Positions 5,505 to 32,892 of a DNA stretch of 42,871 bases are shown piece after piece (position 1 is the first letter of the stretch; each line of letters opens with the position of its first letter). A program made the translations under genes and the position numbers. The DNA lies in the IMG/VR virus record IMGVR_UViG_3300005264_000129, positions 1-42,871 of that record; one strand, written 5' to 3'. A model generated the notes under the pieces. It was not told the DNA's origin, did not search any database, and saw only the letters and a list, made by a program, of their open reading frames with translations. The stretch is from a virus.

Positions 5505-6539
5505 GTGAATAAAAAACTTGAAGTTCGTTCGTCGGGTGAAATACGGAGCACGGAGGGAGAAGGAATTTGTGAGGCCTATTTAACCCGATGGGATACGATT
5601 GATTCATGGAACACCACTTTTGAGGAAGGTGCTTTTAAAAAATCGTTCAAAAAAAGGGGTGCCGAAGGCATTAAATTAATTTGGAACCACGAGGAGCTCG
5701 CCGGTAAAATCCTCGAGGTTTCAGAAGACTCAACCGGGCCGAAGGTTAAAGTGCAATTTAACCTCAACACCCGGACTGGCAAGGAGGCTTTTGAACACGT
5801 AAAAGCTGGCGACGTGCAATGTTTTTCATTCGGTTTTACCACGCTTAAAGACCGATGGAAAAACGGGATTCGATCGATCCAGGAAGTGGATATCGTTGAG
5901 TGTGGACCTGTAGTTTTTCCTGCGAACGAAAAGGCGAAAATTACGGGCGTTCGTGCTGAGGACTTTGATGAAACGATCGAAGAAAATGCCCTCCGACGTA
6001 AAAGGTATGAACTTATCGATGCGTTGAGCGTTACCCTCGACGATATTTATTGGGGTCCTAATAGCGATAAATTGGATAACATTCTCCCACTGATGGACGT
6101 TGCGATTTCAAAATTTCATACGGCATATCTCGATTGGCTAAAGGACTGGTATGATCGCTATGGAAATCGCACTGGCGGATCGCCTCGTGAATTGAGAACA
6201 AGCGTTCAAAAGGTTTTAAATTCCATTGATTTTGACGACTTAAAAAGTCAAACCGGTTTTACCGATGATGAAATTAAGCGGTTAACTCGCAATCAACTGC
6301 TTTCTACCAGGAGCCGGGAAAAAATGGAAAAAGCCCCGAAGGAACTTCGGATCGCTTATAACGAATTGCGACGGGCTAAAGTTGAAGCCCTTTGCGATGA
6401 GTTCCGAAACTCGGGTTTTTCAAACGTCGAACGGGAACGATTTTTTAACCTCCTTGATTTTAGGAATAAGGAAATTATTGACGAATCCGGAGCCAGGGAG
6501 ATTATAAATTTTTTGACCGATTTTAGGAGTAGGCTTTAA
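5505..6539 (+). CDS. HK97-type prohead protease with long C-terminal extension
   Basis: 344 residues beginning at a GTG that follows AAGGAG by six bases. Residues 1-150 are an S78-type capsid maturation protease: His62 in IWNHEE, Ser108 in CFSFGF and an acidic partner in the EVDIVE segment (127-132), followed by the typical GPVVFPANEKAKI. It cleaves scaffold or delta-domain sequence during head maturation. The remaining ~190 residues are mostly helical, charged and not part of the protease family; they could be a fused scaffolding function. The gene lies just before the capsid gene, the usual order. Confidence 0.9.
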   Translation: MNKKLEVRSSGEIRSTEGEGICEAYLTRWDTIDSWNTTFEEGAFKKSFKKRGAEGIKLIWNHEELAGKILEVSEDSTGPKVKVQFNLNTRTGKEAFEHVKAGDVQCFSFGFTTLKDRWKNGIRSIQEVDIVECGPVVFPANEKAKITGVRAEDFDETIEENALRRKRYELIDALSVTLDDIYWGPNSDKLDNILPLMDVAISKFHTAYLDWLKDWYDRYGNRTGGSPRELRTSVQKVLNSIDFDDLKSQTGFTDDEIKRLTRNQLLSTRSREKMEKAPKELRIAYNELRRAKVEALCDEFRNSGFSNVERERFFNLLDFRNKEIIDESGAREIINFLTDFRSRL

Positions 6540-6566
6540 TTTTAATTAATAAAGGAGATTTAGAAA

Positions 6567-7784
6567 ATGGCTGATGAATTAACATTGAAGGATTTACACG
6601 AGGAAATGGGCAAAACTTTTGAGGCGTTCAAGGAGGCCAACGACAAAGCCCTGAAGGAAGCAGAAACCCGTGGGGGAAAAGCCACCGCCGAGACTCGGGA
6701 AAAAGTCGATGCCCTGAACGAGACGATTACGGAGCTGAAAAAGTCCATTGAGGAAATTGAAAAACGTGCTGGCCGTACCGGAAACTTGAAAACTCCCGAG
6801 GGCGAGGACGATGCCGAAAAGGAACTGCGAGCCCAGGCATATGAAAAATATATCCGGTATGGCATGGGCGAGAACGCTGCCGTTGATATGTCGCCGGAGG
6901 AAAAAAGGGCACTCGCAGGAACTGCCGACGATGACGGCCAGTTTTTGGTTCCCACTGATTTTGAAACGAATCTCATTATGAAAGCCTTTGATCTCGCCGA
7001 AGTTCGCCCACTTTGCCAGGCTGGAACTACTTCAAGGGATTCGGTCAAAATGGGCGCACTCGGAAAACCCGTTGTGGCATGGGGAACTCGGGGTCTCGCC
7101 GTTGACGAAAAAACTTTAAGTACCGGGGGAATCATCATCCCAGTCAAAAACATCCGAGCTCTCCATCTGGTTTCAAATGATACGCTCGACGATTCGGCTG
7201 CTGATATCATGAGCGAACTTGCCCAAGCGTTCGAGCTCGCAGTTGCTGAAGCCGAGGACGATGCTTTTATCGTTGGCGATTCGCCCGATTCACCCCGTGG
7301 AATCTTGGTTCATCCCCAGGTCCAGGCGAATAAAACCATGTCAGGCGTTTCTGGCGATATCGCTGACGCATCCCACAATGGTATGGATGCGTTGAAAGCC
7401 ATGGTTTACGCCCTGAAAAAAGTGTATCGTCGCAACGCAACTTGGGCGATGAACTCAACCACTGAAGGCGTTTATCGTACACTAAAGGATGGCGATGGTC
7501 GCTACCTTTGGGATACCGGGCTGGACAAAGAAGGCGTGCCAACACTGCTCGGCAAAAAAGTCATTAATCCCGAGGGTATGCCGGATATTTCTGCTGGCAA
7601 TTATCCCGTCCTTTTTGGCGATTTCAACAGTGGGTATAAAATTCGTGACCGGTCTGGAATCGTGATTAAGCGACTGGTTGAGCGATATGCCGAATACGAT
7701 CAAACCGGCTTTCTCCTCAAAAAGCGAGTTGGTGGAGGTGTCGCACTTCCTGAAGCATTTAGGTGCTTGAAAATTTCCGCATAA
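6567..7784 (+). CDS. Major capsid protein, HK97 fold
   Basis: 405 residues. Residues 1-75 form a charged coiled coil, the expected delta/scaffold domain removed by the upstream protease. The rest follows HK97-type capsids: GQFLVPTDFETNLI, the RPLCQAG segment, GDSPDSPRGIL, the WAMNSTT segment and the C-terminal GFLLKKRVGGGV. Many copies form the icosahedral shell. Strong AAAGGAG ribosome binding site and GC-richer codon choice than its neighbours suggest high expression. The open frame on the opposite strand is a by-product of this codon bias. Confidence 0.95.
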   Translation: MADELTLKDLHEEMGKTFEAFKEANDKALKEAETRGGKATAETREKVDALNETITELKKSIEEIEKRAGRTGNLKTPEGEDDAEKELRAQAYEKYIRYGMGENAAVDMSPEEKRALAGTADDDGQFLVPTDFETNLIMKAFDLAEVRPLCQAGTTSRDSVKMGALGKPVVAWGTRGLAVDEKTLSTGGIIIPVKNIRALHLVSNDTLDDSAADIMSELAQAFELAVAEAEDDAFIVGDSPDSPRGILVHPQVQANKTMSGVSGDIADASHNGMDALKAMVYALKKVYRRNATWAMNSTTEGVYRTLKDGDGRYLWDTGLDKEGVPTLLGKKVINPEGMPDISAGNYPVLFGDFNSGYKIRDRSGIVIKRLVERYAEYDQTGFLLKKRVGGGVALPEAFRCLKISA

Positions 7785-8308: not shown

Positions 8309-8863
8309 ATGAGTGTTGAACTTGTTAGTTTTTCCGAATTAAAAAACGTTTTAGGCCTTGAGGGGGATTCAATCGACGAATACCCCGCTTTAGAAATAAT
8401 TCGTGAAGGAGTAACAGCAGCGATTGAGGAATTTATCGGTCGTGAATTAACACAAAAGGAACGTGAGGAAATTGTTTATGTCGGTAAAACTTTTTCATCA
8501 ATGATTTACCTCAAGGCATTACCGATTTATTCAGTTTCATCCGTTGTAATCGAATCGTGGGGTGATGAAATTACCCTTTCAGATAACGATTTTCAAGTTG
8601 TAAAATACGGTGTTGAATTATTATCACCAATCAATCGCTCCAAGGTTAAAATAACTTATACAGGAGGGTTGGTTGATGAGGATGTTTCAGCACGGTTAAA
8701 TCGAGCCGCATTACTTCAAACCGTATACGAATTTCAAACGAAGGAACACGTCGGGGCCACATCAGTTTATACCGATGGGGGCTCCGTTTCAACGCCTGAA
8801 CTTGGTCTTTTGAAGGAAATTCAACGAATGTTAACTAGTGAAATACATCCCCTAAAATGGTGA
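8309..8863 (+). CDS. Head-tail connector, gp6/adaptor type
   Basis: 184 residues with the typical head-completion adaptor layout: an N-terminal helical segment (FSELKNVLGL, then AAIEEFIGREL), a central beta segment (LKALPIYSVSSVVIE and VKITYTGG) and C-terminal helices. Proteins of the HK97 gp6/SPP1 gp15 type form a ring beneath the portal and connect head to tail. It precedes two other neck or tail-completion genes, as expected. AGCGAGGAA lies upstream of the ATG. Sequence is divergent, so assignment rests on pattern plus order. Confidence 0.75.
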   Translation: MSVELVSFSELKNVLGLEGDSIDEYPALEIIREGVTAAIEEFIGRELTQKEREEIVYVGKTFSSMIYLKALPIYSVSSVVIESWGDEITLSDNDFQVVKYGVELLSPINRSKVKITYTGGLVDEDVSARLNRAALLQTVYEFQTKEHVGATSVYTDGGSVSTPELGLLKEIQRMLTSEIHPLKW

Positions 8864-8867
8864 TATT

Positions 8868-9446
8868 ATGACTCAATTCAACGTGGATGTGGACTCAAAT
8901 GAGGTTGAAACCTATTTATCAAAACTCCCCGATCGGATGTTTAATCGAGTTAAAAATGCCTTTTTAACAGCTTTGATCAATGCCGATAAAAAAACCAAAC
9001 AAAATGCGACAAATCGCCTAAAAGTAAGGACTGGAAATTTAAAACGATCAATTAAGTTTTCACTCGCAGGAAATGAAATAAAAACGTTAAAGGGATCACT
9101 TTACACCGTTGGCCGTCTCGGAGGTCAATCAATAATTTATGCACCGATTCACGAATACGGAGGGACGATTCGAGCGAAAAATGCTTATAAAAAAGTCCCA
9201 GGTGGACCTTATTTAAATATTCCCACGCAGGAAAATAAAACGCCTGCCGGGGTTCAACGGATGACTGCGAAAATGGTCTTTTCGCAAGGTGGATATATCG
9301 CAGGCAAAGGTGTATATTTAAACGGCAAACGGATGTTTTCACTGGTTAAAAAAGTAAAAATACCAGCACGTCTCGGGATGCACGATGCAGCAAAGGGTGA
9401 AATCAAAACCCTACTTAACGAATTACAAAATTTGGTTGAGGAATAA
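8868..9446 (+). CDS. HK97 gp10-like tail completion protein
   Basis: 192 residues containing the family signature RTGNLKRSI (48-56), then IIYAPIHEYGGTIRAK and a C-terminal PARLGM. This family is annotated as HK97 gp10 and acts at the head-tail joint or as a tail completion protein. It begins 4 bases after the connector stop and ends 2 bases before the next ATG. The stretch between the HEYGG motif and PARLGM is longer than in short members and is rich in Lys and Gly. Confidence 0.8.
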   Translation: MTQFNVDVDSNEVETYLSKLPDRMFNRVKNAFLTALINADKKTKQNATNRLKVRTGNLKRSIKFSLAGNEIKTLKGSLYTVGRLGGQSIIYAPIHEYGGTIRAKNAYKKVPGGPYLNIPTQENKTPAGVQRMTAKMVFSQGGYIAGKGVYLNGKRMFSLVKKVKIPARLGMHDAAKGEIKTLLNELQNLVEE

Positions 9447-22573: not shown

Positions 22574-23218
22574 ATGAACATTTTAGATTTTGTAAATTTA
22601 GCGGAAATCGCATATATTAAAAACCCGGATGAAATGGTGAAACGAGTAAATAGCCTTGTTTCTTCTAATGCAAAAACTATTCCCGTATATGTGGAAAAAA
22701 CCGATACTGAGGCTTTTGTTTGCCGATACAATAAATCTTTAGTAATCGGATTTTCGGGAACGGAGAGTATTCGTGATTTACGGCAAGATTTAAAATTTCA
22801 TCCAGTGGATTATAAAGGCGGTAAAATCCACGCAGGTTTTAAGGAAATTTTTGATCAAATTGAGGAGCCTTTAAATGACGCAATAAACGAACTATTCCCA
22901 ATAAGTTATATCGAAAAAATAGACGTAGTAGGGCACTCATTGGGGGGTGCCATTGCGATTGGCACAGTCGATTTAATAAAAATTCCTTATATCTCCGCTT
23001 CGGTTACGACGTTCGGATGTCCGAAGGGCTGGAGTAGAAATTTAGCCAATAAATTTGAAAGTCAATATTTAATTTTTAATTACAGAAATTTTTGTGATTA
23101 TGTAACGTATTTATTAAATTTCACCCACAGGCCAGGGTATACATTTAATGTTTATGGCGTGCCGGGGCATAAAATTTCAAAATATAGGAAAGCAATCGAA
23201 AAGGGAAATTACAAATGA
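22574..23218 (+). CDS. Class 3 lipase-like alpha/beta hydrolase
   Basis: 214 residues with the fungal-type (class 3) lipase core. An oxyanion-type IGFSGTES lies at 58-65, the nucleophile elbow VVGHSLGGA places Ser122, and likely triad partners are Asp175 in NFCDYVTYL and His199 in PGHKIS. These enzymes hydrolyse ester bonds in lipids. It overlaps the following peptidase gene by four bases, so both are translated together, probably for host envelope breakdown during lysis. No signal peptide is visible; it would need a holin or similar route out. Phage lipases of this class are uncommon, and acyl-esterase activity is an alternative. Confidence 0.8.
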   Translation: MNILDFVNLAEIAYIKNPDEMVKRVNSLVSSNAKTIPVYVEKTDTEAFVCRYNKSLVIGFSGTESIRDLRQDLKFHPVDYKGGKIHAGFKEIFDQIEEPLNDAINELFPISYIEKIDVVGHSLGGAIAIGTVDLIKIPYISASVTTFGCPKGWSRNLANKFESQYLIFNYRNFCDYVTYLLNFTHRPGYTFNVYGVPGHKISKYRKAIEKGNYK

Positions 23219-26145: not shown

Positions 26146-26985
26146 TTATTTATCCCATCGCCAACCTTTAAACCGTGGTTGTCGCATTTTTCCCTGCTTC
26201 GTCTCCTCCTTAAAAATACATTCGCAATACACCCCTTGAAATTCCTGTTTATTTTTCCAAATGTAAGTTCGATTATATGAGTTATACGTGTTTTCATCCA
26301 ATTTTTCCCTTTCCTTGATTGTCAATGACGACCAAGGCTTTTCATTAAAACCGACTCCCACCTTGCAGGTTTTATTTTTATATTCCACGATTAAAGCGCC
26401 TAAACTTCCCTCGTGTTTACCCGTGCCCGGCAAAAAACCAATTACTTTACAGTCGGCGGATTCCTCGGGAAATAATTTCATCCACTTATAATTTTTTTTA
26501 TTTTCATATTTACTATCAATATTATAATAAACCAGCCCCTCATATCCACGGTCTAAAAATTGCTTGTATTTTTTCAATAGCTCTGCTTCGTTGGTGACGA
26601 TATGATGTTCCACTACCGATATTGACGGGCTTTGAATATTCCCTAAAACTTCTCGGAGTTTGTAATATCGTTTTATTTTTGAGAGGCCAATGTTGGTAAT
26701 ATCGAAAACATTATATACCGTATCAGGTGCTTCTTGATAGTTGCGAATCAAGCCTGAAGCCACGTCAAAATTTTTTCCTTTTACGATTAACTCACCATCG
26801 AATGAAAAATTAAAGCCAGTCGGAAGCGTATTTAAAATATGCGTCATTCCCTTGATCAAATTTCCACGTCGTGAAACCAAACCCCGTGGAGTTAATTTTG
26901 CCCGAACGCCATCAAGTTTTGGTGCAACTAATGCCGGAAAAATCGCTTTGTTTGAAATGTACTCCTTTGGCCTTTGTACTATCAT
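26146..26985 (-). CDS. ATP-dependent DNA ligase
   Basis: 279 residues. The nucleotidyl transferase core is clear: motif I APKLDGVRA with the AMP-accepting Lys23, SRRG (motif Ia, 38-41), FDGEL (62-66, motif III), YNVFDI (91-96, IIIa), EGLVYY (149-154, IV) and KWMK (167-170, V). An OB domain with RFKGWRWDK at the end follows. It seals nicks during phage DNA replication and repair, like T7 gp1.3. I chose the ATG at 26985 with AAAGGA seven bases upstream over the earlier in-frame TTG at 27003, which lies upstream of that ribosome binding site. Confidence 0.93.
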   Translation of the reverse strand: MIVQRPKEYISNKAIFPALVAPKLDGVRAKLTPRGLVSRRGNLIKGMTHILNTLPTGFNFSFDGELIVKGKNFDVASGLIRNYQEAPDTVYNVFDITNIGLSKIKRYYKLREVLGNIQSPSISVVEHHIVTNEAELLKKYKQFLDRGYEGLVYYNIDSKYENKKNYKWMKLFPEESADCKVIGFLPGTGKHEGSLGALIVEYKNKTCKVGVGFNEKPWSSLTIKEREKLDENTYNSYNRTYIWKNKQEFQGVYCECIFKEETKQGKMRQPRFKGWRWDK

Positions 26986-27003
26986 GTTTTGTTTTCCTTT
27001 CAA

Positions 27004-27225: not shown

Positions 27226-27483
27226 TTACTTTTTTATATCGCCCATCCGAATAAGCCTTATTAATTCCTGGTCTTCCCTTTTGTTCCGGAGAACGTTGAA
27301 TCGCCCTTTTAGCCTTTTTATTATCGCTAATCGCTTTTTAGTTCGTAGTTCAACGGAAATGGCTTTTAGCAATCCTTGTTCGGAAAAAGTGTTGATGACG
27401 TTACTCACTTTTTTCCAACTCGATAATTGGTCTAAATAAAATTCGTAGTCCTCGGGTGAAGGATTCCCAATAAAATTAATCAT
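27226..27483 (-). CDS. Hypothetical protein coupled to DNA polymerase
   Basis: 85 residues; its ATG overlaps the stop of the polymerase C-terminal frame (ATGA), indicating translational coupling to the polymerase. The N-terminal half has acidic and aromatic residues (SPEDYEFYLDQLSSWKKV), the second half is very basic (RTKKRLAIIKRLKGRF, then RNKRED). It looks fully helical and could bind DNA. Possibly a small replication accessory factor; no family recognised. If the polymerase frame is really interrupted, translation of this gene would depend on restart there. Confidence 0.65.
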   Translation of the reverse strand: MINFIGNPSPEDYEFYLDQLSSWKKVSNVINTFSEQGLLKAISVELRTKKRLAIIKRLKGRFNVLRNKREDQELIRLIRMGDIKK

Positions 27484-27875
27484 TTGCGATACCGTTCTGA
27501 TATAAAACCATCAGCATTAAGTGGAAGTCCTTCCCAAATTTCCGACCTGTTGCACAGGACTTCATTAACCTGATTGATTGATAATTCGCCTTTTCGTGTT
27601 TCAAGTACAACTTCATCGTGAACGGTTAAAATGATGTCGTTATAGCCCATACTTTCCAACTCGAGGATCGCTTCAAATAAAACCTCCCGAGCGGAGCCTT
27701 GCGAGGCGTTTTCGGTGAGTCTTCCCGGAGTGATATGATGTTTAATCCATTTTTTCGTTTTGGAATGGAGCCCCATATGACATAACACATATTCTTTCGG
27801 TGAGTCTTCCCGGAGTGATATGATGTTTAATCCATTTTTTCGTTTTGGAATGGAGCCCCATATGACATAACACAT
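27480..27875 (-). pseudogene. Displaced C-terminal part of DNA polymerase (palm motif C)
   Basis: This frame carries the missing end of the polymerase: after the duplicated stretch it reads ENASQGSAREVLFEAILELE, then motif C in LTVHDEVVLE, ending ISERYRK. It is out of frame with the 608-residue N-terminal part because of the 85-base duplication at 27710-27879. Its first ATG, at 27875 within the repeat, has no clear ribosome binding site, and the ~40 residues it would add at the front are out-of-frame translation of the first copy. So this is best read as the detached end of one gene of 667 residues. Confidence 0.85.
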
Positions 27876-27879
27876 ATTC
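27710..27879. repeat. Exact 85-base tandem duplication inside DNA polymerase
   Basis: 27710-27794 and 27795-27879 are identical at all 85 positions and directly adjacent. 85 is not a multiple of three, so the second copy shifts the reading frame. Removing one copy leaves 2004 bases from 29568 to 27480, exactly 668 codons, with no internal stop. Confidence 0.98.
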
Positions 27880-29568
27880 AGCTTTACCCCAATCGTTTAC
27901 CTCGGTTGATACCCACGCCTGCGGGTAGCAAATTGATTTCCCATTCGGTAAAATCATAAATAAATGCCCGGACGTGTGCATGAAACTTATTTTTAAATAG
28001 TTTGTGATTTTTCCGGGTGTTAAAACTGCTTCGATCGCTGCTTTTTTTAACCCATACCATAAATCAACAACTTTATTATACCTGCTCCTAAACGTGTCAA
28101 TCGTTTTTTTCGCTTCCTCGAGGGTGATATCAAATTTCTGCTTTTCAACGCAGTCTCGCCAAAACTTGCGATATCCCATTCCATACCCACCTCCGAGTAT
28201 CGTAAGTTTCCCGTGTCGTCGTCTCCGTGAATCCTTGGGAATTTCATCGTAGGCTTGATCGTATAAATGCGATGCCATATCCTTATATGTGTCCATGCCC
28301 GACCGGATTAATTCGAGCACGTCCTCTTGCTCGGCAAGCCAACAAAGCATCCTATTTTCGATTTGGCTATAATCGGATACGACTAGTTCCTTTCCTTTGC
28401 TCGCACAAATCGACGGCCTGATAAGTGCGGAGGATGTGAATAAAAGCGTATCGTAAATTCCCATTAATTCAGAAAGGTCCTTGGTTTTAAAATCGTGTAT
28501 TGTTTGATTTATCGCCTCCATATAATTTTGACCATCGGAGCAGGGCACAGTTGCACGTGGAAGGTTTTGTGGTTGCAGCAATCTCCCGCCTTCCCGTCCT
28601 GTTGTCGCCTTGTGATATTTTAAACAATCACGAATCCGACCATCGCGGCAAATCGCTTCCTGTATTTTTTGAAATTTTTTAATTGAACTTTTTCCTGCTA
28701 ATTGTCGTATTTCAAGGAGACTTTTGACGTTTTGATAGTTTTCAATTTCCGGGTCACTTAATGCCGATAAAATAGTATCAGCAGTAAAATCAGGCAATTC
28801 ATAACCTTGGGATTCGCACCACTCCATTATTTTTGCTCGTTGATTTATCGTTTTGACTTTGCCGCCGGTTATGATTGGAACTACCGTGGAAACTTCTTGT
28901 AAATATTCCCCCGTTTTTTCAACAATCATGTCCACTAACTCAAGGTCAATGGGTATACCCCGTTGATTTTTTCTCAACGTGTGATGTAAAATTTTTATTT
29001 CAGTATCAGGTAATTCCCACGGGAAATGGTTGAGGATTGCCATTTCCGACCTAACATCCTGTTTACAATATTCGTAAAATTCCTCAAATAATTCAGGGTG
29101 AGTTTCAGGAGTTAGTCGACGATATTTATTTTTTTTCGTAATTTTTTGGGGAACTGATAGCAATTTTATTAATTGCTCGCCCCGTTTATCCTTTTGGACC
29201 TTGAGGTCTAATGCGTCTCCGCATTTATCCAACGCCATGGGGAAAGCAAAATTTAGGGCGATTGCTTGAGTATCCCTCCACTGCTCGAGTTTTATCACCG
29301 GCCAATTTAATTTTTTTACGCCAATTTCATTCCAGATCGCAAACTCAAAACCGACGTTCCAGGCATAAACTAAATCGCCTCGTAATATCGCATCTCGCAG
29401 GACAAGTGGAAATTCGTCTCCAGCTATCCAAATTTCAGGAGGCGAATTATTAATCGAATATGCTAAGCATATTATATCCGTTGATCGGTCTTGGGCGTAT
29501 CGATGTTGACCAACGTTTTTTAAGTCGGCTTCGGAGTAAGTTTCAAAATCAATATTAATTTGTCCCAT
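27742..29568 (-). CDS. Family A DNA polymerase, truncated by frameshift
   Basis: 608 residues as it stands. The 3'-5' exonuclease domain has DFETYSE (Asp7, Glu9), the WNVGFEFAIWN segment (70-80) and YCKQDV (Tyr167, Asp171). The polymerase domain has motif A DYSQIENRML (Asp399) and the fingers motif B region from RRRRHGKLTILGGGYGMGY (448-466). Motif C with the second catalytic Asp lies beyond the frameshift, so this product should proofread but not polymerise. The last ~18 residues are out-of-frame. The start overlaps the dCMP deaminase stop by 14 bases. Undamaged, it would be the main replicative polymerase. Confidence 0.9.
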   Translation of the reverse strand: MGQINIDFETYSEADLKNVGQHRYAQDRSTDIICLAYSINNSPPEIWIAGDEFPLVLRDAILRGDLVYAWNVGFEFAIWNEIGVKKLNWPVIKLEQWRDTQAIALNFAFPMALDKCGDALDLKVQKDKRGEQLIKLLSVPQKITKKNKYRRLTPETHPELFEEFYEYCKQDVRSEMAILNHFPWELPDTEIKILHHTLRKNQRGIPIDLELVDMIVEKTGEYLQEVSTVVPIITGGKVKTINQRAKIMEWCESQGYELPDFTADTILSALSDPEIENYQNVKSLLEIRQLAGKSSIKKFQKIQEAICRDGRIRDCLKYHKATTGREGGRLLQPQNLPRATVPCSDGQNYMEAINQTIHDFKTKDLSELMGIYDTLLFTSSALIRPSICASKGKELVVSDYSQIENRMLCWLAEQEDVLELIRSGMDTYKDMASHLYDQAYDEIPKDSRRRRHGKLTILGGGYGMGYRKFWRDCVEKQKFDITLEEAKKTIDTFRSRYNKVVDLWYGLKKAAIEAVLTPGKITNYLKISFMHTSGHLFMILPNGKSICYPQAWVSTEVNDWGKAEYVLCHMGLHSKTKKWIKHHITPGRLTERICVMSYGAPFQNEKMD

Positions 29569-29980
29569 ACTGTTTTTTCCTTATATTGCATTGTTTTAAA
29601 AAATTATTACACAAATCGGATACAGCATACTTATTCAAAAAAACAATATTTTTTATATCATATGTGGCTATTAATTTGCAACAGTTAAAACAGGGTTCCA
29701 ATGTAACATAAATCGTTTCAGGCTTAATTCGTGAATGTGAACACAACAATAAAGCATTGACCTCGGCATGAATCGCCGGGCACGAATCGAGATCCTGGCC
29801 TGATACTTTTCGATTACATTTCCGACAATGTGGATATCCTGAAGGAGGTCCGTTATAACCCGTGGATATAATTTTATTATCGCCTACGATTATAGCCCCC
29901 ACCTGCCGGGACAGGCAGGGGCTTCGCTTTGCAACGATTTTAGCAATTTCCATGAAATATTTTTCTCGGCTTATTCGCAT
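29555..29980 (-). CDS. dCMP deaminase (zinc-dependent cytidine deaminase family)
   Basis: 141 residues with the deaminase core: zinc ligand and proton shuttle in IHAEVNAL (His71, Glu73) and EPCFNCCK (Cys97, Cys100). Additional His/Cys residues (HCRKC at 51-55) match the second zinc site of ComEB/T4 cd-type enzymes. It converts dCMP to dUMP, feeding dTTP synthesis and lowering the dCMP pool. It lies between the thymidylate synthase-like gene and the polymerase, with 9-base and overlapping junctions, so it belongs to the same operon. In T4 the equivalent enzyme accompanies hydroxymethyl-dCMP synthesis. Confidence 0.93.
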   Translation of the reverse strand: MRISREKYFMEIAKIVAKRSPCLSRQVGAIIVGDNKIISTGYNGPPSGYPHCRKCNRKVSGQDLDSCPAIHAEVNALLLCSHSRIKPETIYVTLEPCFNCCKLIATYDIKNIVFLNKYAVSDLCNNFLKQCNIRKKQYGTN

Positions 29981-29989
29981 ATATTTTTC

Positions 29990-30685
29990 CTAAAACATAT
30001 CCTTAACATGCCCTTTAAAACAATGCAAGGAACCGATATTATGATAAAAATACCCCGGTTTAACTCCCACTGAATTAGCGATAAATATCATCAAGTTAAT
30101 TGTCATAAATACGTCCGATGCGTAAAATAAGGCATAATCGCAGGATCTTTGGTTGTAAATGACGTGTAACATATTGTTCCGAATCAAAAATTGATATGAA
30201 AGCGAACACGGGACTCTGTCTTGACCTCCCCAGTTCATCATGTCCCTGGTTGATTCGTAAAATGACAATATCGCCTGTCTCGTATTAGGTCGAGTTTTCA
30301 ATTCGTGGATAATATAAGGCAACTGTGCATGATACCGTTCCGGGTAACTATATGAAAAAACTCCATTTCTTAAATAGGGCTGCCAAAACGCTTTTCGTAA
30401 TTCCCACGCCTTGCCCGGATTTTTATTCACGAGCTGTAAATTTACCCGTTCGGATAGCTCGGCATATGCCCATTCAACGTGAATATTCATTTCCTTGAGT
30501 AATTCGTTTAGGTCATTATATCCCTGTATACAATAGGAATACCCCATCAATTCCAAGGTTTCAAAATTCGGATCGTCACCGACGTACTTGTCCTGAACCG
30601 TTTCTGATTGGTAACGGATACCCATTTCCTTCAATTCGCGACCGATTTCTTTAGCTGCGTCAACAGTCGATTGATAAATTCTCAT
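29990..30685 (-). CDS. Thymidylate synthase-fold dCMP hydroxymethylase or methylase (predicted)
   Basis: 231 residues, close to T4 gp42 (246). Gapless alignment to E. coli thymidylate synthase from the catalytic Cys is possible: Cys160 (C146) in RVPCSLSYQF, Arg180/Ser181/Asp183 (R166, S167, D169) in NQRSCDY, and His221 (H207). The position of N177, which recognises dUMP, is Asp191 (FYASDVFM). Asp there is the hallmark of T4 dCMP hydroxymethylase and related dCMP-modifying enzymes. So the substrate is predicted to be dCMP, with methylene-tetrahydrofolate as carbon donor and hydroxymethyl-dCMP the likely product. It overlaps the methyltransferase gene by four bases. Confidence 0.82.
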   Translation of the reverse strand: MRIYQSTVDAAKEIGRELKEMGIRYQSETVQDKYVGDDPNFETLELMGYSYCIQGYNDLNELLKEMNIHVEWAYAELSERVNLQLVNKNPGKAWELRKAFWQPYLRNGVFSYSYPERYHAQLPYIIHELKTRPNTRQAILSFYESTRDMMNWGGQDRVPCSLSYQFLIRNNMLHVIYNQRSCDYALFYASDVFMTINLMIFIANSVGVKPGYFYHNIGSLHCFKGHVKDMF

Positions 30686-31800
30686 TTGTCCAGTGCCTCC
30701 TGGATATACCTATTTGGCTTTGCGAGCCGTTGAAAGGAACACGTATATTTTTTATCATTATTACAAAAAGCGACAAATTGGTCAATCAAAAATTTAGGAA
30801 ATTCACACGGGATACACCTTCCTGTCTGCTGAATCATATTCCTATTTCTGCTATGCACCCACGTTCCATCATCCTCAAATCGTGTGCCGTAAAAAATAAA
30901 ATCGTCCGGAAATCCCATTATTCTAGCTCGTTCCCGAATCGTTAAAGGGAGGCATCGTAAGGGATGGATTAGTGGATGGGTTCCAATTAGCGTTAATGCC
31001 GGTCGGTCATAATTCGGTTTTATAAATCCAAAGTGATATTTTTTAACTCCATCCTCCCTAAAATAATGAAGTGCTTTATTATCCGTTTTCGTCCTAAAAA
31101 CATGCTGAATTTGCCCCCAAGTCATCGTTCCATCTTGGAAAACTCGCCTCCCACTATTTGAACGTGCTGTGGTCGAATGTTCATCGTGATTGGGAAGCGA
31201 TCCGATGTTATTTTCTAAATCGGAAATCGTGGACCTTAATGTGGCTGTGTTTTTCGTCTCGCCAGGGGCGAATATGTAATTTAATTCTTTGAGAGTTGCG
31301 ATAATGAAAAGCCGGTTCCGGTTTGCTTGGCAATTTCCATAATAGTAATTGGATACATATTCAATCGATACGTCATAATCAGTCAATAGCGATTTATACA
31401 AACTCGGCGGATTCGCCTCCAATGACTTGGGGAGGTTGTCAAAAAACGCCAATTTAGGCTTAACCCGATTGACGATATTAATAAATTCTATAAAGTCCAT
31501 GGATTTTTTAGCCGCATAATCAATTCTTTTTTGGCCCTTCAAATTGACTAAATTCGAGTATGTTCCACATTTGGGATGACCGGCGATGATGTCAATATCC
31601 TTCAATAATTCGCTGGGAACTTCATCGATTTTTCGCACCAAAAATGCTCCGGGAAAATTCTCGAGAAACGTATTTCTCCCCTTTTCGTCATAAACATGAA
31701 CAAATGGTCGGGGTTCGATATTTCCAACTATTTCATGTCCATCCCTCGCAGCTAATGCGAATGGTGATCCTATGCCGCCGTATACACCTAAAATTTTCAT
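30682..31800 (-). CDS. Divergent cytosine-C5 DNA methyltransferase family protein
   Basis: 372 residues with the C5-methyltransferase plan. Motif I is VYGGIGSPFALA (6-17), motif IV is IIAGHPKCGTYSN with the putative nucleophile Cys78, motif VI is FFDNLPKS (119-126), motif VIII is around QANRNRLFIIA (158-168), and a target-recognition segment precedes LTIRERARIMGFP (motif IX-like). Two signatures differ from the norm: GGPPC is GHPKC, and the catalytic ENV is DNL, so activity or product may be unusual. The ATG at 31800 overlaps the upstream stop (TGATG); an in-frame TTG at 31803 is less likely. It sits in the nucleotide modification operon. Confidence 0.8.
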   Translation of the reverse strand: MKILGVYGGIGSPFALAARDGHEIVGNIEPRPFVHVYDEKGRNTFLENFPGAFLVRKIDEVPSELLKDIDIIAGHPKCGTYSNLVNLKGQKRIDYAAKKSMDFIEFINIVNRVKPKLAFFDNLPKSLEANPPSLYKSLLTDYDVSIEYVSNYYYGNCQANRNRLFIIATLKELNYIFAPGETKNTATLRSTISDLENNIGSLPNHDEHSTTARSNSGRRVFQDGTMTWGQIQHVFRTKTDNKALHYFREDGVKKYHFGFIKPNYDRPALTLIGTHPLIHPLRCLPLTIRERARIMGFPDDFIFYGTRFEDDGTWVHSRNRNMIQQTGRCIPCEFPKFLIDQFVAFCNNDKKYTCSFQRLAKPNRYIQEALDK

Positions 31801-32405
31801 CAATAATTACTCCTAATCCTGAATTGATTAACCATATTTTTTTTCATGTAAATCATAAAAATTTGGTCGAGGTTTAAATTGTGATTCATGATGCAGGATA
31901 TAAGGTCATAATATCCTAACAGGAGGTGCCGTTTAAACCGATTTTGATCAGTCAGAACGTGGGTATTTTTCCACGGTTTGTTTTTCAGAAGGTTACATGC
32001 AATTCCCAAGTTATAACAAACGTTTAAAATGCTTTTACTCCAACAGTTATATTCAAATTGTATGTCTGCCGGTGTGTATTCGCAAATAATCAACAGCTCG
32101 GTATAAAAGTGTAATGTGTCGATCAATTCCTCCAAACAATGGAGGTGATTATTTTCGTTCAATGCCTCCTGGGCTTCGGTTAATTCCTCGGTAATTCGCC
32201 AGGCAAAATCCTTAATCAAGTATTGCCAGTTCCGATCGTCGAGTGAAAAGGGCCCTTGAACCAATCCCAGCCCCAGCTGATTGTGAAGTTCGATATGTTT
32301 ATATTTTTCGTGCAGTTCATTTTGCCTTTTGAAAATCGCCTCGAAAATTTCCCTTTCAGTTTCGGGAATTTTAATATCGTCATCATTAATGTCTGTAATG
32401 TTCAT
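31800..32405 (-). CDS. All-alpha NTP pyrophosphohydrolase (MazG/dUTPase-2, gp56-like)
   Basis: 201 residues, predicted fully helical. The metal-binding signature of the MazG/dimeric dUTPase superfamily is visible: ITEELTEAQEA (Glu73, Glu74, Glu77), then LEELIDTLHF (Glu93, Asp96). These enzymes hydrolyse non-canonical or unwanted dNTPs to dNMPs; T4 gp56 does so for dCTP and dUTP to keep normal cytosine out of phage DNA and supply dCMP. Flanking genes make that role attractive here. A perfect GGAGG precedes the ATG, which overlaps the kinase-like gene by 20 bases. Substrate is inference. Confidence 0.75.
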   Translation of the reverse strand: MNITDINDDDIKIPETEREIFEAIFKRQNELHEKYKHIELHNQLGLGLVQGPFSLDDRNWQYLIKDFAWRITEELTEAQEALNENNHLHCLEELIDTLHFYTELLIICEYTPADIQFEYNCWSKSILNVCYNLGIACNLLKNKPWKNTHVLTDQNRFKRHLLLGYYDLISCIMNHNLNLDQIFMIYMKKNMVNQFRIRSNY

Positions 32406-32892
32406 TTATTGCCTCCATAAGTTGATTTTTGGTTGTTGTTCTGAAATCGATATTAACGATATTTACATCCGCCTTTAAACTGTGCATATAGCCCTCATAA
32501 CGATCATATATAAATTTATAATTTTGATGCACAGCTATCACATGATTCTGGCTTTTATGGGGTTTATTTTTTAAAAAATGCAATTTAGTTTTTAAATACT
32601 CCCATCCCGGATTGCAATAAAAAATAATGGGATCGAGGGTTTTCAAATAACTGATTGCATACCCTTGAGAAATTAACGGTGTCCTCCCGGGTAACTGGCC
32701 GTAAATTATTTCTGAAATGCAAGGATGGCGATCGTAAATGACTTTCCGGGGAGCAAGGCTTATCCTTGTAATCAATTCCACGCTTGATTTGGGAGGGCCG
32801 CCAAAGTGGTGTAATTTTAAGCCTAACATATCGCTAAGCATTTTACCCACCGTGGATTTACCCCCTAAATCGGGTCCTTCTAAAATTATCAT
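32386..32892 (-). CDS. P-loop deoxynucleotide kinase-like protein
   Basis: 168 residues with Walker A GPDLGGKST (6-14) and the DRHPCISEIIYG segment (54-65) typical of thymidylate/deoxynucleoside kinase-like phage proteins. It is shorter than T4 gp1 (241). It could phosphorylate a modified dNMP so that it reaches the triphosphate pool, or act on modified bases in DNA as P-loop kinases of hypermodifying phages do. First gene of the operon that runs through modification genes into the DNA polymerase; AAGGAG lies upstream. Kinase fold is clear; the substrate is not. Confidence 0.78.
   Translation of the reverse strand: MIILEGPDLGGKSTVGKMLSDMLGLKLHHFGGPPKSSVELITRISLAPRKVIYDRHPCISEIIYGQLPGRTPLISQGYAISYLKTLDPIIFYCNPGWEYLKTKLHFLKNKPHKSQNHVIAVHQNYKFIYDRYEGYMHSLKADVNIVNIDFRTTTKNQLMEAINEHYRH

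Follow-up and report, generated by a model that had tools for sequence, protein, structure and literature searches.

A predicted compact cytosine-modification cassette with a divergent C5-methyltransferase homologue in a phage contig

Bacteriophage T4 replaces cytosine by hydroxymethylcytosine through cd, gp42, gp56 and gp1. The signature of its dCMP hydroxymethylase consists of Asp145, which activates water, and Ser94, and the exchange D145N is already inactive (PMC6400193); the residue at the position of E. coli Asn177 decides between dUMP and dCMP, with Asp selecting cytosine (PMC8670742, PMC6400193). Other described systems include phage XP12, the DNA of which has 100% 5-methylcytosine (PMC7653180), and CmoX of Synechococcus phage S-B43, a DNA cytosine C5-carboxymethyltransferase in which Arg350 binds the carboxylate of carboxy-SAM (PMC12783734). 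In the MetaGPA network, Asp177-type thymidylate synthases, phosphoribosyl-ATP pyrophosphohydrolase, dCMP deaminase and DNA ligase co-occur with C-modified phage DNA (PMC8670742). Judging from sequence, we consider it likely that the window (that is, the whole 42,871-nucleotide stretch analysed here) carries a compact cytosine-replacement cassette in which a thymidylate-synthase fold enzyme (TS) modifies dCMP and a C5-methyltransferase homologue (MT) acts afterwards in DNA.

The five genes of this cassette are consecutive on the minus strand (29555-32892) and are transcribed in the order kinase-like protein, dUTPase_2/gp56-type pyrophosphohydrolase (PPH), MT, TS-like enzyme and deaminase (Table 1). 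The original prediction of a consecutive, overlapping set running straight into the DNA polymerase holds at four junctions, which overlap by 4-20 nt and include that of the deaminase (ending at 29555) with the polymerase (from 29568), but the TS-like and deaminase genes are separated by a 9-nt gap. The MT start codon is TTG and the second codon is ATG. The predicted families were recovered for the deaminase, TS fold, C5-methyltransferase and pyrophosphohydrolase, the Pfam matches of which all exceed curated cut-offs, and less strongly for the P-loop kinase, for which PHROGs gives the family phrog_761 (‘thymidylate kinase’, 4.5e-12) and the sequence shows a Walker A motif, with no Pfam match above cut-off (dNK 0.061). 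This protein is 46-48% identical to its counterparts in the related loci L005 and L007, and is probably a dNMP kinase.

Table 1 Coordinates of the cassette, its diagnostic residues and neighbouring genes in the window.
Feature	Position	Strand	Evidence
P-loop nucleotide kinase (predicted), 168 aa	32386..32892	-	phrog_761; Walker A GPDLGGKS
PPH, all-alpha dCTP/dUTP pyrophosphohydrolase (PF08761; gp56-like), 201 aa	31800..32405	-	PF08761 (dUTPase_2) 2e-7
MT, DNA cytosine-C5-methyltransferase-fold enzyme, divergent, 373 aa	30682..31803	-	PF00145 (DNA_methylase) 1.2e-18
MT motif IV H76-P77-K78-C79-G80	31564..31578	-	His, Cys, Gly each 38/38 in clade
MT motif VI D122-N123-L124 (canonical E-N-V)	31432..31440	-	Asp in 40/40 clade members
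MT Arg329, motif X	30817..30819	-	K/R in 42/42 of clade
TS-like enzyme (TS fold, pyrimidine C5-modifying; active site of dCMP type), 231 aa	29990..30685	-	PF00303 (Thymidylat_synt) 6.7e-19; residue tables
TS-like Tyr112 (T4 hydroxymethylase Ser94 position)	30350..30352	-	Tyr 63/79, His 12/79
TS-like R157-V-P-C160, catalytic Cys160	30206..30217	-	Arg157 in 73/79 aligned
TS-like Asp191 (E. coli Asn177 position)	30113..30115	-	Asp in 76/79 aligned
dCMP deaminase, 141 aa	29555..29980	-	PF00383 4.2e-24; phrog_174 2.5e-47; HAE and PCxxC zinc motifs
Family A DNA polymerase, N-terminal exonuclease region, first frame	27742..29568	-	phrog_17 5.7e-68; PF00476 1.6e-18
Polymerase C-terminal remainder, other frame, downstream of duplication	27480..27875	-	52-54% to L004/L005 C-terminus
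ATP-dependent DNA ligase	26146..27003	-	PF14743 5.6e-10; PF01068 6e-10

Searches of viral contigs with single proteins returned only two loci, and alignment-based searches were needed to collect relatives. The order kinase-PPH-MT-TS-deaminase-polymerase is kept in L005 and L007 at protein identities of 46-71%, and the arrangement of PPH, one intervening gene (the slot) and TS is seen again in dozens of IMG/VR contigs, so the cassette is not a chance assembly. PPH scores 31.9 bits against PF08761 (gathering score 22.9), carries EExxE at 73-77 and EExxD at 92-96, and ends, as does T4 gp56, on a conserved Tyr; the likeness to gp56 is further upheld by the PPH family profile, for which gp56 is the top match (19.8 versus 9.9 bits, among T4 open reading frames and 1000 shuffles). 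The same profile also matches the Campylobacter dUTPase 1w2y (6e-5). As PF08761 includes plain dUTPases, PPH could serve dTTP synthesis only. Elsewhere on the contig, portal, terminase, tape measure, capsid and protease genes make the predicted siphovirus assignment plausible, short of proof. The family A polymerase is the probable user of modified dCTP. In the sequence of this contig, an exact tandem duplication of 85 bp (27710-27879) puts its gene out of frame, whereas the polymerase is intact in L004 and L005 (662 aa). The DNA ligase family is likewise associated with C-modified phage contigs (PMC8670742). The window shares with the MetaGPA network the Asp177-type TS, dCMP deaminase/MafB19-like, PRA-PH-type domain and DNA ligase, whereas it has no detected carbamoyltransferase, and the altered MT described below is absent from the main text of that study (‘methyltransferase’, 0 occurrences; PMC8670742).

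The TS-like enzyme has the dCMP-selecting Asp that was originally predicted: Asp191 and Cys160 align to Asp179 (cytosine recognition) and the catalytic Cys148 of T4 gp42. The chain has no C-terminal lid, ending 10 residues past His221, and falls below every NCBIfam TS cut-off; Asp191 and the missing tail mark it as not of the ThyA (dUMP) type. Within its clade, a separate thymidylate synthase is present as ThyX in L013 and L014 and as a second Asn177-type TS in L005 (ThyX is additionally found in L002, L034, L057, L117, L121 and L085), and because these three close relatives have such a gene, the TS-like enzyme is probably not the thymidylate synthase of the phage. Asp191, the gp56-type PPH, the dCMP deaminase, the conserved order and the published family association together support a cytosine-specific cassette, the TS product of which could be methyl-, hydroxymethyl- or hydroxy-dCMP.

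The narrower T4-type form of this reading, in which the TS-like enzyme uses methylene-tetrahydrofolate to make 5-hydroxymethyl-dCMP and the DNA contains hydroxymethylcytosine or a derivative, is a serious candidate, although we would not quite expect it. Asp191, the absence of a lid, as in T4 gp42 (PMC6400193), the folate-site Trp101 (kept in 75 of the 79 aligned sequences) and the presence of a gp56-type PPH and a deaminase all fit, as does, weakly, given that the host has one, the failure to find a dihydrofolate reductase (DHFR) on the contig. However, the published hydroxymethylation signature is replaced, with Arg157 standing for Asp145 three residues upstream of the catalytic Cys, and Tyr112, two positions before the catalytic Tyr, standing for the Ser/Thr (Ser94) of gp42. 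In addition, with profiles built without T4 gp42, gp42 scores below all other reference subfamilies (58.7 bits, compared with 87.9 for the Mosigvirus 5-hydroxy-dCMP synthase type, 75.0 for XP12-type TS and 71.7 for E. coli ThyA). The locus resembles T4 in its deaminase, lid-less Asp-type TS-fold enzyme, gp56-type PPH and nucleotide kinase, and differs in the gp42 signature, the MT inside the operon, the family A polymerase and the lack of a detected glucosyltransferase; as predicted, scans with Pfam or PHROGs, which covered some but not all of the small open reading frames of the window, detected no glycosyltransferase, on a contig that may be incomplete. Of the original proposal that the phage makes hydroxymethyl-dCTP or another C5-modified dCTP in T4-like fashion, the cytosine-modification cassette stands, whereas the specifically T4-type hydroxymethyl product is not borne out by these residues and scores.

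Two other chemistries were considered. If the TS-like enzyme were a flavin-dependent 5-hydroxy-dCMP synthase, as in HY126 and Mosigvirus, the DNA would contain 5-hydroxycytosine capped by MT, for example by O-alkylation, in the way that CmoB treats 5-hydroxyuridine in tRNA; we regard this as unlikely. The HY126 dCMP hydroxylase (9iqu, 9iqc), which has the TS fold and Asp at 177, is the sole solved structure below 1e-10 for the window-family profile A1 (4e-17), and our literature search found no primary paper on this enzyme or on 9IQU/9IQC. The Mosigvirus enzyme is the top typed reference and has Arg117 and Phe223 in common with the TS-like enzyme, but the two Mosigvirus sequences compared have Glu at -3 from the Cys, Asn169 and no folate-site Trp where the TS-like enzyme has Arg157, Asp183 and Trp101, and the window family forms a separate branch of the TS tree (which has long branches). 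Methylation of dCMP by the TS-like enzyme, giving 5-methylcytosine throughout the DNA as in XP12, likewise has a low probability in our judgement: the XP12-like phage AXL1, which stands in for XP12 in our comparisons, has the identical PPH-TS-deaminase order and Asp at 177, yet its adjoining DHFR and TS C-terminal extension, which fit reductive methylation, are both missing from the window, and its slot contains no MT. Siphoviruses such as Serratia phage Serbin (L083) also have the order kinase-dUTPase-slot-TS-deaminase-PolA, with Asp and with Arg at -3 in TS, although their slot protein is unannotated and is not an MT.

What is new in the window is MT, which belongs to an altered-motif clade tied to Asp-type TS. 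As predicted, it is a divergent C5-methyltransferase: it scores 68.1 bits against PF00145 (cut-off 22), its AlphaFold2 model (pLDDT 93.0, run without database-derived rows) matches M.HaeIII best (1e-18) and CmoX sixth (4.8e-16), and motifs IV, VI and X are all non-canonical. Motif IV retains the catalytic Cys of the canonical G/S-P-P-C-Q/E, whereas the preceding Pro and following Gln are gone, and the motif VI acid, Glu in 21/21 comparison MTs, is Asp throughout the clade. In motif X, where the canonical residue is Asn, Arg329 aligns with CmoX Arg350 and with Asn304 of M.HhaI, the steric-engineering position. MT is like CmoX in its fold and in the Arg/Lys at the carboxy-SAM position. It is unlike it in adjoining an Asp-type TS and in having neither the SPPC motif nor the catalytic Glu, the features used to collect CmoX; no CmoA or CmoY was detected in the window or in the neighbourhood of the MT clade. 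About 41 phage proteins share the altered motifs, and an Asp-type TS lies within 6 kb of 37 of the 41; for the remaining viral relatives of MT the figure is 4 of 33 (Fisher 3.8e-12, kinship among phages ignored). Lys or Arg occupies motif X in all 43 MTs that belong to the clade or lie beside an Asp-type TS and in all 7 beside CmoA, but in 1 of 96 others, the remainder of which have N, E or Q where aligned. By these sequence features, MT is a distinct re-tooled branch of cytosine methyltransferases, found almost only beside Asp-type TS gene sets; this clade-wide link supports the original guess that the homologue elaborates the base and, as the branch is both altered and nearly confined to such cassettes, the finished base may be new. 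An ordinary thymidylate-supply operon (deaminase, TS, dUTPase and dTMP kinase) beside an unrelated protective DNA methyltransferase would fit all of the family names, including PF08761 with its dUTPases, but is very unlikely and was rejected as the main reading given Asp191, a residue that nearly all relatives share at position 177, the separate ThyX or Asn-type TS of close relatives, and MT motifs that are non-canonical and tied to Asp-type TS.

The slot between PPH and TS is filled by either an MT-clade protein or a TS-fold paralogue, with both together in 0 of 94 loci, and their exchange requires four switches on the TS tree; of the 94 distinct loci, many of which are clipped, 66 have PPH no more than 7 kb from TS. 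For the cytosine-replacement cassette we envision that PPH would hydrolyse dCTP and dUTP, keeping normal dCTP from the DNA and letting dCMP build up. In the TS-like enzyme, Cys160 would then attack C6 of dCMP while Asp191 recognizes the cytosine, and C5 would gain a one-carbon or oxygen substituent (that is, hydroxymethyl, methyl or hydroxy). The kinase and the host nucleoside diphosphate kinase could convert the product to modified dCTP for incorporation by the phage polymerase, and the deaminase may turn surplus dCMP into dUMP to feed the dTMP supply. After replication, as the clade-wide association and altered motifs suggest, MT may act through Cys79 on C5-modified cytosine in DNA, adding or exchanging a moiety from SAM, possibly carboxy-SAM. 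A more specific proposal, tentative and somewhat doubtful, is that the MT clade alkylates cytosine already hydroxymethylated or hydroxylated by the TS-like enzyme, with host carboxy-SAM held by the motif-X Lys/Arg, to give an undescribed base (for example, carboxymethyl or carboxymethoxy), and that the TS-fold paralogue perhaps performs an equivalent second step.

Base modification in phages determines which bacterial defences are effective and is a source of enzymes for DNA sequencing and labelling. Because MT and a TS-fold paralogue replace each other, the second step can be put to the test in two contrasting sets of phages. If a C5-methyltransferase scaffold has indeed been re-tooled for C5-substituted cytosine, it would be a natural counterpart of chemistry otherwise obtained from engineered enzymes, and H-P-x-C-G, D-N/D-L-P and a motif-X Lys/Arg beside an Asp-type TS would provide a sequence marker for further phages of this kind.

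The left half of the window, an IMG/VR contig of 42,871 bp, carries structural genes on the plus strand, closing with a class 3 lipase-like protein, and the right half a replication block that lies mostly on the minus strand. In this block a kinase, a gp56-type pyrophosphohydrolase (PPH), a divergent DNA cytosine-C5-methyltransferase-fold enzyme (MT), a thymidylate-synthase-fold enzyme (TS-like) and a dCMP deaminase follow one another; a family A DNA polymerase stands directly after the deaminase, as the original prediction had it, and close downstream an ATP-dependent DNA ligase is encoded. The five genes are consecutive, as proposed, and four junctions overlap, but one is a 9-nt gap. Four of the five exceed curated Pfam cut-offs, and the kinase is named by PHROGs. 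The polymerase frame is shifted by an exact 85-bp tandem duplication, either an assembly artefact or a real mutation; the gene is intact (662 amino acids) in the related loci L004 and L005.

Features of the window and of related loci (L-numbers)
Locus	Feature	Coordinates	Strand
Window	Class 3 lipase-like protein (PF01764, 4.6e-15), end of structural block	22574-23218	+
Window	Tandem duplication in polymerase	27710-27879	-
Window	TS-like	29990-30685	-
Window	MT	30682-31803	-
Window	PPH	31800-32405	-
L002	ThyX beside Asp-type TS	6174-6815	
L005	Extra dNMP-kinase-like gene, upstream of operon	259-786	
L005	Second TS-like protein (Asn at 177), upstream of operon	1238-2008	
L009	N6/N4-type DNA methylase (PF01555), within or beside slot	8504-9391	
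L013	ThyX beside Asp-type TS, between MT and TS	565-1209	
L014	ThyX beside Asp-type TS	5842-6513	
L022	phrog_34294 family protein	5918-6700	
L024	N6/N4-type DNA methylase (PF01555), within or beside slot	5947-6774	

The operon order of the window recurs in L005 and L007 at 46-71% protein identity, and a wider search gave 69 loci with a related TS; in nearly all of those with long enough flank, PPH lies upstream of TS with one slot between them. The isolate Serratia phage Serbin has the order thymidylate kinase, dUTPase (pfam08761), hypothetical protein, thymidylate synthase, cytidine deaminase and DNA polymerase I.

The TS-like enzyme keeps the catalytic Cys160 together with Arg136, Arg180, Ser181, Asp183, Tyr114 and His221. 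The predicted dCMP-selecting Asp is present: Asp191 replaces Asn177 of Escherichia coli ThyA, and Asp occupies this position in 76 of 79 alignment rows. Asn177 to Asp shifts TS preference from dUMP to dCMP, and in MetaGPA position 177 is one of the two TS residues that best separate C-modified from unmodified phage contigs, the second being His147 (PMC8670742), a position that is also altered here (Ser161). Independent support that the enzyme does not make dTMP comes from relatives within the window's own TS clade, in that L013 (inside the operon) and L014 encode ThyX, and another TS, with Asn at position 177, is present in L005. On these residues and neighbours, dCMP is a well-supported substrate.

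The product cannot be read from T4. The T4 hydroxymethylation signature is Asp/Glu three residues before Cys and Ser/Thr two residues before Tyr (PMC6400193); the TS-like enzyme has Arg157 (73 of 79 rows) and Tyr112 (63 Tyr and 12 His of 79) at these positions. With TS family profiles built without reference sequences, the Mosigvirus-type 5-hydroxy-dCMP synthase scored 87.9 bits, XP12-type AXL1 gp63 75.0, ThyA 71.7 and T4 gp42, the lowest of those typed, 58.7 (shuffled controls, at most 8.9). A narrow TS profile matched only 9iqu and 9iqc below 1e-10 in the PDB, with descriptions naming phage HY126 dCMP hydroxylase and a riboflavin-dependent monooxygenase with dCMP and FAD. Mosigvirus cytosines have as their source 5-hydroxy-dCMP from a TS-superfamily enzyme (PMC13390438); however, unlike the window enzyme, those of Mosigvirus have Glu at -3 and Asn at 169 and lack the folate Trp, present in the window protein as Trp101. 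In the TS tree the window family is a separate branch, and neighbouring branches are long. The T4 model is thus well supported for the substrate, dCMP, whose product may carry a hydroxymethyl, a methyl or a hydroxy group.

Among T4 open reading frames, the PPH family profile scores gp56 highest (19.8 bits, against at most 9.9 for 1000 shuffled sequences), and it also matches Campylobacter dUTPase (6e-5). The PPH chain ends at a conserved Tyr, as in T4 gp56, whereas the Campylobacter chain runs approximately 40 residues past it; dCTPase activity is plausible.

An AlphaFold2 model of MT (pLDDT 93.0) has the C5-methyltransferase fold, with M.HaeIII as best match (1e-18) and CmoX sixth (4.8e-16). 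A search for relatives gave a clade of approximately 41 distinct viral proteins (at least 31% identity to the window MT), in which motif IV reads H-(P/T)-x-C-G rather than G/S-P-P-C-Q/E, motif VI has Asp for Glu (40/40; comparison proteins have Glu in 21/21) and Lys/Arg takes the place of the usual Asn/Glu in motif X (42/42). Clade members do retain the catalytic Cys (38/38) and the arginines of motif VIII (40/40), which argues for the clade being catalytically active. In M.HhaI the counterparts of the altered residues, the one following Cys and the one in motif X, are Gln82 and Asn304, the two conserved positions enlarged so that C5-methyltransferases accept bulky cofactors (PMC10666283). The motif X residue also aligns with CmoX Arg350, which binds the carboxylate of carboxy-SAM (a cofactor that can come from host CmoA) and mirrors engineered M.MpeI N374K (PMC12783734). 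As the 5,615 reported CmoX candidates were selected for SPPC plus Arg350 (PMC12783734), the clade would fall outside them. CmoA was not found in the window or beside clade members.

An Asp-type TS (that is, with Asp at 177) lies within 6 kb of 37 of the 41 distinct clade members and of 4 of 33 viral MT relatives outside the clade (Fisher test, 3.8e-12, counting related phages that are not independent). Among the four exceptions, two have less than 7.2 kb of sequence with neither TS nor deaminase, and two have the deaminase. In a wider cross-table, motif X Lys/Arg occurs in 35/35 clade MTs beside an Asp-type TS, 4/4 clade members whose sequence shows no TS, 4/4 non-clade MTs beside an Asp-type TS (which also lack Pro before Cys), 7/7 MTs beside CmoA and 1/96 others. 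More distant homologues beside an Asp-type TS (L131, L132, L134 and L143) have intermediate motifs (PSC, or PDC with Glu in motif VI, and Lys in motif X) and are possibly transition forms. Five IMG/VR contigs (L139, L141, L146, L149 and L150) carry CmoX-like methyltransferases with CmoA and CmoY as neighbours. Of the genome hits kept, L168 alone (contig RPRB01000006.1, binned in a Myxococcaceae MAG) belongs to the clade; it is probably phage, given that its length, coordinates and proteins are identical to those of IMG/VR L130.

In related phages the slot between PPH and TS can instead hold an unannotated family, phrog_34294 (the L022 protein and approximately 50 other gap proteins, sometimes as two tandem copies). 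Four residues are invariant in this family (Tyr, Cys, Arg and Asp) and match the TS catalytic set, and profile comparison with TS aligns exactly the catalytic-residue region (E 9e-5, probability 59.5). The best fold matches of its AlphaFold2 model (pLDDT 94.8) are TS-fold enzymes, namely HY126 dCMP hydroxylase (1.5e-5), MilA and T4 hydroxymethylase, at modest TM-scores (approximately 0.44-0.57), and a homologue in MW202455 is annotated 'pyrimidine hmase synthase'; the family resembles a further enzyme of the TS fold in degenerate form. Across 94 distinct TS loci, phrog_34294 lies within 4.5 kb in 43, the MT clade in 35 and both in none, and parsimony on the TS tree needs four switches between them. 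We infer that the slot holds a second C5-acting enzyme, supplied by either the MT or the TS fold.

In summary, the operon is real and conserved, and as a cassette for cytosine modification it belongs to a broadly known kind. It combines a TS-like enzyme whose product T4 does not reveal with a C5-methyltransferase-fold partner that has an altered active site, of which the papers searched gave no description.
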